Translations under genes and position numbers: made by a program
Shown: one piece after another, positions 5,428 to 13,310 of the stretch
How the letters are laid out: the number at the start of each line of letters is the position of its first letter
Position numbering within the stretch: position 1 is the first letter of the stretch
Source of the DNA: Lysobacterales bacterium
Lineage (GTDB): Bacteria > Pseudomonadota > Gammaproteobacteria > Xanthomonadales > Marinicellaceae
Reading direction: 5' to 3'
NCBI GenBank assembly: GCA_026988115.1
Contig: JALSLV010000110.1
Span: 1 to 34,106, forward strand
Length of the DNA: 34,106 bases
The notes under the pieces: model-generated
The model's input: only the letters and a program-made list of their open reading frames with translations
Told to the model about the DNA's origin: nothing
Database searches by the model: none

Positions 5428-5942
5428 AAACATTACTGTCCCTATTTTTAATTTTAATTCTTGCTTCGTGTTCCTCAAGTTCTAAGAAAATTGTGGATAA
5501 ATTGTACTATCGTTTTGGAGAACCTCTGGTAATTACAACAAATATTGACTTTGGGGTTCAAAGACCTACAGCGATGGGTATTTTGGGAAATCGACCCATG
5601 GTTGCTCAGAAAGCTGACGGAGCTTTGCTGCAACTCAATCATAATTTTTGGATAGATTCACCAAAAATATTGCTGCAAAATTACTTAATTAAGTCATTTA
5701 ATGTCTCCCCGGGAGCCCATGATAATCAATTAAAATCGACCCTCTTAAATTTTGAAAAAAAGGGAAGCACCTCAATCGTATCAATTGTATTTACACTTGT
5801 TGACAAGAACAACAACACACTTTTTCAAAAAACTTATACCCAACAGCAAGAACTACCTGAAAACACAATGGCCGCGTTCGTTAAAAGCGTGTCCCAATCT
5901 CTTGGAATAATTATTAAAATATTGGCTGAAGATTTAAAATGA
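5424..5942 (+). CDS. ABC-type transport auxiliary lipoprotein (PqiC-like)
   Basis: A 172-residue lipoprotein: the signal peptide ends in a lipobox LASC with the lipidated Cys at residue 16, followed by Ser-rich linker residues that suit outer-membrane targeting. The mature part has the alternating strands of the ABC_trans_aux/PqiC group (YYRFGEPLVI, then GILGNRPMVA and QLNHNFWID). Its position directly after an MCE gene, with a 4-base overlap, is the usual place for this family, which is thought to dock the MCE tunnel at the outer membrane. Family assignment rests on context plus the fold pattern; sequence conservation in this family is low. Confidence 0.78.
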   Translation: MKTLLSLFLILILASCSSSSKKIVDKLYYRFGEPLVITTNIDFGVQRPTAMGILGNRPMVAQKADGALLQLNHNFWIDSPKILLQNYLIKSFNVSPGAHDNQLKSTLLNFEKKGSTSIVSIVFTLVDKNNNTLFQKTYTQQQELPENTMAAFVKSVSQSLGIIIKILAEDLK

Positions 5943-10676: not shown

Positions 10677-11083
10677 TGGAAATTGAGAACAAACTGTACA
10701 ATCAAGCAGTTAATTTAGTGCGGCAACGTTACCCAACTGGTTCCGGAGGTGCCGCAGCTATTGCCACAGAATCAGGAAAAATACTCACCAGTATTGCCCC
10801 TGAGGTAAAAAATGATGCTCTTTCTTTGTGTATGGAGGTTGGGGCATTACTCGAAGCGCATAAACGAGACGAAAAAGTCACTCATAGTTTATGCCTCTAT
10901 CGACAGGATGAAATGTCAGACTTCATTGTCTTAACGCCTTGTGGTATTTGCCAAGAACGCTTAGTGCATTGGGGTGGAAAAGTGCGCGTTGCTATTTCAA
11001 ACCCAGAGAACAAACTTATATTCAAATCAATAAGAGAACTGCAACCTTATCATTGGTCACAGGTCAATGGAGAAAAATTATGA
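10673..11083 (+). CDS. Cytidine/blasticidin-S deaminase-like protein
   Basis: Zn-dependent deaminase fold of the cytidine deaminase superfamily. The expected ligands are present as C57-x-E59 (LCMEVGAL) and the pair C94..C97 in TPCGICQERL (numbered from an upstream in-frame ATG at 10661); a Cys replaces the His found in some CDAs, as in small tetrameric forms. The ATG at 10673 overlaps the pgeF stop (ATGA), which I take as the start, with ATGs at 10661 and 10676 as alternatives. About 136 residues, normal for a tetrameric CDA. Coupling to pgeF suggests a joint role in nucleoside salvage or in removing damaged nucleosides; the true substrate cannot be read from sequence. Confidence 0.8.
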   Translation: MMEIENKLYNQAVNLVRQRYPTGSGGAAAIATESGKILTSIAPEVKNDALSLCMEVGALLEAHKRDEKVTHSLCLYRQDEMSDFIVLTPCGICQERLVHWGGKVRVAISNPENKLIFKSIRELQPYHWSQVNGEKL

Positions 11084-11655
11084 AACATCATATCAGACGA
11101 TTATCAGGCTCTTGCCATTGTGGAAAAATTCAATACACGGTTGATAATCAACCATTTGATGGCGATTATTGCCACTGCCGTGATTGCCAAAAAATCACTG
11201 GCTCGCCTGTTTCAGCTTGGATGGATTTTAAAGATGGGCAAGTCACTTGGGACAATGAAAAACCTAAAGAATATCATTCTTCAGCAACAATTCGTTGTGG
11301 TTTTTGTGAGCACTGTGGATCAACATTAAGTTACAGGCATAAAAAACACCCTGAATACATAACCCTAGGAGCTTGTCCGAGAATAGGAATCGTAGTGAAG
11401 GAAAGTTGGATTTAGGGCTGTTTTTCAGTTTTTTGAGAAGAATAGCACCGCTATTTGCCGAGAAAAAGCGGAAAATAGCACAAATCCAGCTTTTCTGTAA
11501 TAGATTATCTATTCTCGGACAAGCTCCTAGCCATAACGTCTTTAGATAACCCTAATTTAGTACACCCAAACTATCATATTTATACCGCATCACAAGTAAT
11601 ATGGTTACATATTGAGGATAACCTCCCAAAATACCAAAAGAGCAAAGTTAATTAA
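11080..11655 (+). pseudogene. GFA/CENP-V family protein, interrupted by a miniature element
   Basis: Begins at 11080 with an ATGA overlap on the deaminase stop and GGAG at 11069-11072. Residues 1-96 are a GFA-type Zn-binding fold (SGSCHCGKIQY, YCHCRDCQKITGSPVSAW, CEHCGSTLSY), the family of glutathione-dependent formaldehyde-activating enzymes. At codon 96 the frame runs into a palindromic insertion and stops at 11413-11415, giving a 111-residue product with an alien tail. If 162 bases (11369-11530) are removed, the frame continues through ASLDNP-like residues (AITSLDNPNLVHPNYHIYT), then VIWLHIEDNLPKY, to TAA at 11653-11655: a 137-residue protein with the expected GFA C-terminus. The insertion is therefore recent. 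Whether the shortened product works is unknown. Confidence 0.88.
11365..11530. mobile_element. MITE-like palindromic insertion with 19-22 bp terminal inverted repeats
   Basis: Ends 11365-11386 and 11509-11530 are perfect inverted repeats of 22 bases; the terminal sequence inside the flanking CTA is GGAGCTTGTCCGAGAATAG. The similarity of the two arms extends imperfectly to about 50 bases (GGATTT and the flanking A/T-rich stretches), as expected if the two ends of a larger insertion sequence were joined. There is no room for a transposase, so movement would need one in trans. The outermost CTAG is itself a palindrome, so the target duplication is either TA inside CTAG (the IS630/Tc1-mariner habit, element 11368-11527) or CTAG (as in some IS5 relatives, element 11369-11526); both restore the same empty site. 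Family not proven. Confidence 0.85.
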
Positions 11656-11725: not shown

Positions 11726-12097
11726 ATGAAAGTATCTGATTCTGAATTGAAATTGCTCGAGGTTTTATGGCAACAGAGTCCATTAACTGTTGGTCAAGTC
11801 ATTCAACGCGTACAAATCAACACCAAATGGCACGAAAACACAATCAAAACACTGTTGATGCGTTTGACAAAAAAACAAGCCGTGAAACGCCATAAAGATG
11901 GAAGACGCTACTTTTATCAAGCCAATGTTGAAAAAGACACCTTACTATCAGAAGAAACCCAAGGGTTTTTAGCTAAGTTTTTTGGTGGGAGAGTCTCTCC
12001 TTTTATTGCTCACTTCAATAAAACCAATAAATTATCATCTGATGAAATAAAAGAACTCGAAGCCATTTTAGCTAAAATGAAACAAGAAAATGATTAA
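11726..12097 (+). CDS. BlaI/MecI/CopY-family transcriptional repressor
   Basis: A 123-residue winged-helix repressor. The family start is clear (VSDSELKLLEVLWQQSPLT, then HENTIKTLLMRLTKKQAV and DGRRYFYQANV); the second half is the helical dimerisation region where BlaI-type repressors are cut to trigger induction. It overlaps the M56 peptidase gene by 8 bases. Two palindromic operators lie directly upstream. By analogy with BlaI-BlaR1, the membrane peptidase would inactivate this protein when it senses its signal. The regulated targets, apart from its own operon, are unknown. Confidence 0.93.
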   Translation: MKVSDSELKLLEVLWQQSPLTVGQVIQRVQINTKWHENTIKTLLMRLTKKQAVKRHKDGRRYFYQANVEKDTLLSEETQGFLAKFFGGRVSPFIAHFNKTNKLSSDEIKELEAILAKMKQEND

Positions 12098-13310
12098 CTG
12101 GCTATACCAAACAAACCTAGAAGTCAGCATAATAATCGGCATAATATTATTGATAAGAAAACCCGTGCGCGCCTTGCTCGGCTCTCATGTGGTTTATTGG
12201 TTGTGGGCAATTCCATTTATTCGCTTTGTCAGCTGGTTTAAAGCAGAAATTCCATCCACTGTTTTTGAACAAGTGAATTTTCCCAATGGAAAAATACTCA
12301 TTCGTATTTTTGACAATCCCGATACTTGGCGTTTGAGCTATTACTTTACTTTAGAAAAAATTTGGATAGGCGGTGTTGTCGCTTGGATAATACTGCGCGT
12401 ATTGGGGTGGATAAAGTTTAAAAAACACTTAAAAGCCACAAGCTCACCCATGGATATTTACCAACACGTAAATGACATAGAACCGTTAAAGAACCTCCAA
12501 AAGGTCAGTTTTTTCAACACCACCATTACTGATGCTCCATTTATTACAGGAATTTTCAAAGCTCAGATATATTTACCAGAAAATTCGTTTAAACAGCACT
12601 CTCAGCAACAAAAAATGTGCATACTAAAACACGAAATGACCCATTTGAACCGCAAAGATTTATGGGCGCAAATAGCAGCAGAAATAATGCGCACTCTCTT
12701 TTGGTTTAACCCAGTTATTCATATTGCTTACCACCTATTTAGACAAGATCAAGAGTTAGCCTGTGACCACAGCGTCCTTGCTGCATCTAATGATGAAGAA
12801 CGTTTAGAGTATGGGCGTGTTTTATTAAAAGCCATACATTCCCATGCACTGCCAACAGCTTTATCTTTTTTCAATAACCCAAAACAGAGGTTTATCATGT
12901 TAGAAAAACATAAAAATTCAACTTTCACAACAATTTTAGGCATTTCGTTATGTGCCATCATAACAGTCTTTGCATTGACTAAAGCGCCAGACTCTATTGC
13001 CAAAGAAGCAAAAAACCAACAAGGTGTCAGTTTTAAATTTAAGGACATTCCATTAAAAAACATTCTTATGCTGGTTGCTGATGGAATGCATAAGGAGGTT
13101 GTCGGTTTTCATAAACTTCCTGACATCAATATTTCTGTATCTGCAAAAAATGTCAACGCCTCAGAGTTTGAAAATTTAATTCTAAAATGCACAGGATTTA
13201 AACTGGAACCAAAAGAAGGTTATTTTGAAATCATGAACGATACAAAATCTAAAAACAACCTTAAAAATTCAAACCAATGCATTAATACACTTAATGAGAA
13301 AAAATCATGA
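12090..13310 (+). CDS. M56 (BlaR1-type) membrane metallopeptidase with C-terminal STN-like domain
   Basis: Predicted sensor-protease paired with the BlaI repressor. Hydrophobic segments lie near residues 10-25, 32-50 and 91-108, then the cytosolic Zn-protease domain with HEMTH at 181-185 and the likely third ligand E222 in QELACDHSVL, then a further membrane helix at about 280-296. The periplasmic part (about 314-382: FKFKDIPLKNILMLVADGMH ... INISVSAKNVNASEFENLIL) resembles an STN domain, the short domain of secretins and transducing TonB receptors, rather than the penicillin-binding sensor of BlaR1. So beta-lactams are an unlikely signal. The 3' end overlaps the next start by 4 bases (ATGA). 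STN assignment is by pattern and needs a profile search. Confidence 0.85.
   Translation: MINWLYQTNLEVSIIIGIILLIRKPVRALLGSHVVYWLWAIPFIRFVSWFKAEIPSTVFEQVNFPNGKILIRIFDNPDTWRLSYYFTLEKIWIGGVVAWIILRVLGWIKFKKHLKATSSPMDIYQHVNDIEPLKNLQKVSFFNTTITDAPFITGIFKAQIYLPENSFKQHSQQQKMCILKHEMTHLNRKDLWAQIAAEIMRTLFWFNPVIHIAYHLFRQDQELACDHSVLAASNDEERLEYGRVLLKAIHSHALPTALSFFNNPKQRFIMLEKHKNSTFTTILGISLCAIITVFALTKAPDSIAKEAKNQQGVSFKFKDIPLKNILMLVADGMHKEVVGFHKLPDINISVSAKNVNASEFENLILKCTGFKLEPKEGYFEIMNDTKSKNNLKNSNQCINTLNEKKS

Follow-up and report, generated by a model that had tools for sequence, protein, structure and literature searches.

A miniature element with IS1182-type ends and a fold conserved on one strand, inserted at CTAG within a GFA gene of a Lysobacterales bacterium

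Introduction

Correia elements (CREE) and RUP are palindromic miniature inverted-repeat transposable elements (MITEs) of roughly 100–160 bp that can fold when transcribed. Their ends differ from those of the element described here, and they duplicate TA and have a narrow host range. According to the available part of its description, MITEPye1 of Paracoccus yeei is a non-autonomous element with IS1182-family-like ends of 18 bp and direct repeats at its borders, and it is predicted to fold into long stem-loops; in all these respects it resembles the present element (PMC11578231). Unlike the present element, MITEPye1 appears in that text as coming from one species, with no covariation across taxa, and the likeness is one of description. 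MITEPsy1, as presented in an excerpt of PMC3189936, is likewise short (100 nt), holds no gene, duplicates CTAG or YTAA and can interrupt genes. In contrast to the present element, it has ISPsy2-like ends (tabulated as 'IS5?'), another sequence and, with a hint of wider homologues in the same excerpt, a restricted distribution.

Among autonomous insertion sequences (ISs), ISPse1 of Paracoccus is tabulated as "IS1182, 1653, 16/16, 4" in the available part of PMC3281130, the 4 being taken here as the direct-repeat length. For the IS1182 family, to which IS1272 belongs, it has been proposed that stem-loops or palindromes are dealt with as DNA structures; IS1272 differs from the present element in that it is autonomous and, according to the same excerpt, replaces target stem-loops without target duplication (PMC5678879). 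The MITEs of Thiomargarita, with a 10-bp repeat or TATAG on their flanks (excerpt of PMC4853749), and MITEAba12, which is mostly 113 bp long with 9-bp duplications (excerpt of PMC6382973), were also considered and were set aside.

In this study, a 158-bp element lying in a GFA gene was analyzed together with its relatives. No published description of it was found by end sequence or topic among openly licensed PMC papers, and as far as these searches reach, both its breadth and its one-strand fold, conserved through paired changes, are new.

Results

Insertion in the GFA gene

The window is a stretch of 34,106 nucleotides from a Lysobacterales bacterium (assembly GCA_026988115.1, contig JALSLV010000110.1). 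The 5' part of a GFA gene, comprising the 95 codons before the insertion, is located at positions 11080–11364 on the + strand, and its translation matched PF04828 in Pfam (E = 6e-21). It is followed by a left CTAG copy (11365–11368), the element proper of 158 bp (11369–11526, folded sense strand +), a right CTAG copy (11527–11530) and the 3' part of the GFA gene (11531–11655, + strand), which the insertion severed from its start. The left terminal inverted repeat GAGCTTGTCCGAGAATAG (11369–11386, +) and the right one (11509–11526, −) extend to 11365–11386 and 11509–11530 when CTAG is included, and they are perfect over these 22 bases, as was claimed in a preliminary description made from the window alone. 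The arms of the whole 166-base palindrome (11365–11530) are 80% complementary across 49 bases.

Translation of the GFA frame continues into the element and meets a stop at 11415, after 111 codons. When 11364 was joined to 11527, with 162 bases omitted, a frame of 137 codons ending in YITLAITSLDNPNLVHPNYHIYTASQVIWLHIEDNLPKYQKSKVN and a stop codon was obtained. When this rejoined reading was aligned with intact GFA proteins from two other genomes of the genus, no gaps were needed, and the identities were 52% (131 residues) and 51% (130 residues). The rejoining proposed in the preliminary description is thereby borne out, and so is its view of a non-autonomous inverted-repeat element, since the 158 bp hold no transposase gene and the GFA frame stops within them. 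That the omitted length is frame-neutral is an accident of this copy; elsewhere, paired ends mostly bound 156–161 bp (41 of 68 loci listed with a pair). A second GFA-like frame of 135 codons in the window's genome is 61% identical. In genome G004, the GFA gene is interrupted by the identical insertion at the same position; therefore, the insertion is older than the split of the two genomes. A regulatory pair is encoded downstream in the window (11726–13310), namely a penicillinase repressor (PF03965) and, after it, a BlaR1-type M56 peptidase (PF05569).

Copies and unfilled sites

Thirteen copies covering at least 158 of the 166 query bases with at least 76% identity (L001–L011, L013 and L014) were found in the window's genome, along with related copies and many fragments, as the preliminary description would have it. 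Its readable empty site was recovered at the protein level for GFA and at the DNA level for other insertions. At the insertion of L009, all 12 of the sister sequences fetched were uninterrupted, with CTAG (nine) or TTAG (three) at the insertion point, and at that of L002, all seven were uninterrupted (CTAG in five, CTAA in two). Unfilled sites were also seen at greater divergence, with CTAG (L218 compared with L014) and TTAG (L228 compared with L005), and the comparison of L229 with L016 was ambiguous. The host sequences of L009 and L002 are themselves repeated in their own genome. These hosts represent two further repeat families with matched parts of about 125–150 bp (query positions 1123–1268 and 37–162), each present in several copies of about 88–97% identity.

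Most of the full copies listed have CTAG on both sides, as does the element in the window, in agreement with the preliminary description, and the rest have CCAG, CTAA, TTAG and similar sequences on one side. CTAG was most likely a pre-existing target that now stands on both sides. The first base of the element is G and its last is C, so that duplication of the 4-base CTAG and of the 2-base TA are indistinguishable in such a target; the preliminary description likewise noted that CTAG duplication gives the same empty site. The element is short, has terminal inverted repeats (18 bp, or 22 bp with CTAG) and unfilled sister sites, and occurs in several copies in the genome, these being the features that define a MITE. 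It has a history of mobility and is a genuine mobile element. Among the copies inspected, the border CTAGG was often CCAGG on one side; very-short-patch repair, acting on CTAGG to give CCAGG, could presumably produce such one-sided borders.

A related type that shares the core and has GTGCCTGACCGAGAAAG ends was observed in the window's own genome (L016, L018, L019 and L022), in G002 (L062) and in G006 (L061). Some of its members have longer border repeats, namely TAATTA, TAACTA and TACATA (6 bp) and TATTGTA (7 bp), the last of which is fitted by the unfilled site L235; L022 and L061 have only TA at their borders. At the site of L016, no more than about 40 bp of the element is left in the sequence L217 (G004:C192), where the two ends remain after an internal deletion.

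Fold of the interior

As single-stranded DNA, the 166 bases had a folding energy of −45.2 kcal/mol, compared with −14.4 ± 2.75 kcal/mol for 200 shuffled sequences (z = −11.2). Fifty-eight copies were reduced to 39 by removal of near-duplicates, and 37 of these were aligned with plain MAFFT (alignment A1); L079 and L098 were omitted as too divergent. RNAalifold predicted 57 pairs on A1, 46 of which showed two-sided changes, and five apical pairs were added by hand to give a 62-pair structure. Across the 37 sequences and 62 pairs, 93.0% of cells were paired and 49 pairs had two-sided changes. The corresponding numbers of pairs in the controls were 28.2 ± 2.5 for shuffles and 25–35 for versions slid along the alignment, although the derivation of the structure from A1 itself favours it over the slid versions. 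Covarying pairs, the mark of a structured RNA, were thus present in an alignment built without structure.

Two further sets were aligned to the covariance model: A2, consisting of 24 copies from the genus (8 of its 24 rows repeat rows of A1), and A3, with 34 rows, one of which (L246) repeats L087 of A1. In A3, which thus leans towards the model, 94.9% of cells were paired and 49 pairs had two-sided changes, against 28.7 ± 2.4 in shuffles and 19–27 in slid versions. Two end types, TGTCCGAGAATAG and TGTCGGACTTAGG or variants of them, occur on one core in A3 and switch on both arms together (11 versus 23 rows, columns 14 and 168).

Several parts of the interior are conserved as well. An internal loop by the terminal stem has its 5' strand at 11391–11401 (+; family consensus in A1, CGTAGCGAGGG) and its 3' strand at 11495–11503 (+; consensus in A1, CCGCAGTAG). 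The apical part at 11432–11466 (+; family consensus TTTGAGGCGAATAG-n-CTATTTAACGAAAA) comprises a small hairpin and a facing internal loop, as seen from A1 and the pair counts. The mismatched loops, CGTAGCGAGGG facing CCGCAGTAG and TTTGAGGCG facing TTAACGA, persist in most rows.

A search of the element in 14 loci against Rfam gave no match at the gathering threshold, and the best weak match in the window was far below its cut-off. Near one copy of the element, in Endozoicomonas acroporae, positions 5786–5914 (−) of L094 matched the molybdenum/tungsten riboswitch RF01055 of Rfam with 48.9 bits.

Strand specificity

The covariance model R1 gave 166.4 bits for the + strand of the element versus 97.3 bits for the − strand. 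With the orientation of A1 set by sequence motifs and not by energy, the sense RNA folded lower than the antisense in all rows of every set (37/37 in A1, 24/24 in A2 and 34/34 in A3). With DNA parameters, the sense strand was lower in 37/37, 24/24 and 33/34 rows, respectively, by a smaller margin. In pairs obtained from folding either strand, G-U and A-C occupied 72 and 25 cells, respectively.

States, not cells, were then counted at pairs with a Watson-Crick consensus, a state being called shared when present in at least two rows; the rows are related, and no tree correction was applied. Shared G-U and A-C states numbered 25 and 6 in A1, 13 and 2 in A2, and 19 and 4 in A3, and once-only states numbered 21 and 21, 11 and 11, and 18 and 11, respectively. 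The contrast between shared and once-only states gave Fisher p values of 0.013 (A1), 0.035 (A2) and 0.13 (A3, not significant), and in A3 the once-only states are also tilted towards G-U, as the shared ones are. Since rows are related and A2 repeats rows of A1, these strand counts are indications. Among the changes seen once in the genus set, transitions away from a Watson-Crick pair whose other base was unchanged gave seven G-U and seven A-C, 15 transversions broke a pair, and 10 bases pair with a partner that has also changed. From the last number, it follows that the once-only changes are not all recent and fold-blind. The simplest reading of these data is that private, recent changes mostly ignore the fold and that the lineages that spread on kept it on one strand. 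The pairs are conserved in a strand-specific manner. Neither this fold nor the reach of the family could be seen from one window.

Search for a transposase with matching ends

An origin from IS630 had been proposed in the preliminary description. One IS630-type (DDE_3) transposase, L054, was found in the window's genome, and its ends are of another sequence. These ends are of the kind CGGAATAATACCGC, and L054 adjoins a tandem run of TGTTTTAT-like units. Nor did the search suggested there for an autonomous transposase with the same ends succeed in the window's genome (G000, a draft of 121 contigs), in which two IS1182-type transposases used as queries gave no match. The partner may possibly have been lost or left unassembled in this draft. 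Among the IS1182-type genes of the genus, retrieved via DUF772, the two with visible inverted repeats (L186 and L189) have TGTGAAAGTATTC-type ends instead.

When lone element ends in the window's genome and in a collection of genome contigs were followed for an adjoining transposase (7 + 21 loci), only L158, from a Neomarinimicrobiota bin, had one, an IS1182 gene beside a lone TGTCCGAGAATAG end; its right end was looked for and was not found. In the one-contig genome G181, 43 ends with at most one mismatch were detected, no pair of which lay 1–2 kb apart. A scan with the end pattern gave at least 106 loci. Among the matches listed, 68 have the opposite end within 3.5 kb; the shortest end-to-end distance in these 68 was 156–161 bp in 41, 108 bp in 6 and 139 bp in 5, and none had its only partner end at IS length.

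On a plasmid of Mesorhizobium sp. AR07 (L276), the order CTAG, CAGCCTGTCGGACTTAG, transposase, ATCAGTCCGACAGGCTG, CTAG was found, and the transposase was assigned to IS1182 with 353 bits against a cut-off of 270 (NCBIfam). The class was searched with this transposase and a second one, and 32 distinct IS1182-type places, the plasmid included, were examined. Twelve of them (L276–L281, L283, L285, L286, L288, L299 and L319) are, like the element, bounded by CTAG and by inverted repeats beginning with (G/C)AG, and GTC(C/G)G stands at the same place in the ends of 9 of these 12; the other 20 places have no CTAG with (G/C)AG ends. Unlike the element, the 12 ISs are about 1.5–1.8 kb long, hold a transposase gene and gave no match to the folded element better than E = 0.45. 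Three more places were looked at less fully; L158 and L282 have one such end each and L284 has none. In L281, the CTAG-bounded element lies within a longer palindrome, ccgggCTAG ... CTAGcccgg, which is in line with a possible preference of the IS1182 family for palindromic targets.

Among the CTAG-bounded ISs, L283 (genome G169) has the end type of the window: 1817 bp between two CTAG copies, with the ends GAGGCTGTCCGAGAACA ... TTCTCGGACAGCCTC, the former being of the same type as the left repeat of the element. Its transposase of 512 aa was assigned to IS1182 with 384 bits (cut-off 270) and is 67% identical over 493 aa to that of L158. The transposases located between matching ends are above the IS1182 cut-off and below the IS5 cut-offs of NCBIfam. 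By its end sequence and target, the element is a MITE of the IS1182 kind, and an IS1182 transposase probably moved this copy in trans.

A partner with such ends is rare. A CTAG-bounded IS1182 element was seen in 2 (G150 and G169) of the 66 gammaproteobacterial genomes that carry the miniature element, and four sampled genomes with CTAG-bounded IS1182 (G195, G209, G258 and G328, placed in the sample by their handles) are not among these 66 carriers. The folded interior was not found inside an IS at any of 42 loci (best E = 0.45).

Gene context and host range

Of 101 copies (of which L087 and L246 are one and the same), 96 were not spanned by an ORF of at least 90 codons as judged with a crude caller. 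No orientation bias relative to neighbouring genes was observed (45:40 and 47:41), which speaks against a cis RNA role, and a rough look at the orientation along G181, taken from end sequences and independently of the replication origin, revealed no bias either. In 25 flanks, counted from those listed, a neighbouring frame ends exactly on the border TAG. As the target copy restores the stop codon, insertion at TAG leaves the protein whole. Gene-breaking insertions such as that in GFA seem to be a minority.

With R1 at an E value of 1e-5 or better, the element was found in 66 of 274 sampled gammaproteobacterial genomes, at most 10 candidates being scored per genome. The named carriers include Endozoicomonas, Methylomonas, Sedimenticola, Salinisphaera, Desulforhopalus and Desulfocapsa, with Endozoicomonas acroporae (L094 and L172) and Desulforhopalus vacuolatus (L149) as cultured ones. 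Some bins of other phyla also carry it, and bins of Mariprofundaceae and of Fermentibacteria are among the carriers, with mis-assigned contigs being possible for bins. Among 72,556 plasmid records, one (Pseudomonas sp. MPC6) contained the element. A phage collection gave no match to the element. In viral contigs, one stretch matched the end pattern, and a scan with the neighbouring repressor protein found nothing.

Discussion

The explanation that we favour, and hold to be likely, is that the element is an IS1182-mobilised MITE that inserts at CTAG and whose interior fold, on one strand, is needed for its spread. IS1182-family transposases would act in trans on the element ends and insert them into CTAG, so that CTAG ends up on both sides of the inserted element. 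One strand, + in the window, maintains a defined fold with conserved internal loops, in which stem letters change in pairs. This fold, as RNA or as single-stranded DNA, is probably required for spreading, and resident copies would then decay largely regardless of it.

An ordinary MITE with a passive spacer as its interior, in which paired changes arise from arm-by-arm DNA repair (template switching) without selection, would account for the long imperfect palindrome, for the unbiased orientation relative to genes and for the balance of once-only G-U and A-C in A1 and A2. However, the conserved mismatched loops, still seen in most rows, would be lost if one arm were repaired from the other, and such repair would make Watson-Crick pairs with no one-strand excess of shared G-U over A-C; we therefore regard this account as unlikely. 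The very strong covariation on one strand could also belong to a structured RNA gene or regulator in the service of the host, repeated by chance and maintained by selection wherever it stands. The inverted repeats, the flanking CTAG copies and the unfilled sites are at odds with such a role, as are the lack of orientation bias to genes and, in the genus set, the equal once-only transitions (seven G-U and seven A-C) together with the 15 transversions that broke pairs, and this origin appears very improbable.

As for the mobilising family, IS630 elements favour CTAG targets, and an IS630/Tc1-mariner MITE that duplicates TA within CTAG would explain why TA lies inside the target, why the two borders of some copies differ (CTAG with CTAA, or TTAG with CTAA), and why TTAG or CTAA stands at some of the unfilled sister sites, as TA duplication would allow. 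Against this stand the other ends of the one IS630 in the window's genome, which is the genome that the search covered, and the IS1182 transposases carried by CTAG-bounded elements with this end type, so that an IS630 origin is very unlikely. A derivation from the IS5 family, with duplication of CTAG/YTAR, is suggested by MITEPsy1 of Pseudomonas syringae, which inserts after CTAG or YTAA, duplicates it on insertion and is linked to ISPsy2 in the available part of its report; the ends of MITEPsy1 given there, GGAAGGTCTGAAAAAGCC, differ from those found here (PMC3189936). The transposases between matching ends, moreover, pass the IS1182 cut-off and stay under the IS5 cut-offs in NCBIfam, and we consider an IS5 derivation, which was searched for by the end-pattern scans, very unlikely.

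Within an IS1182-dependent spread, the element might also be one in which the fold, of a short structured RNA or of a single-stranded DNA hairpin whose internal loops are fixed, is the cargo, the IS1182-type ends are exchangeable jackets and the one-strand fold is required for its own spread, like a bacterial SINE. This is a possibility that we raise tentatively and would on balance not expect to hold. If true, the element would be a parasite of a parasite, present in roughly one in four of the gammaproteobacterial genomes sampled and only here and there outside them.

Bacterial MITEs are usually viewed as worn-down transposon ends confined to a few related species. The present family shows one design with ends that match different IS1182 elements, and a one-strand fold kept through dozens of paired substitutions. 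The covariance model can be used to annotate many copies that at present stand as intergenic repeats without explanation. Should mobility require the fold, the family would offer a testable case of a DDE transposon system relying on a structured single strand.
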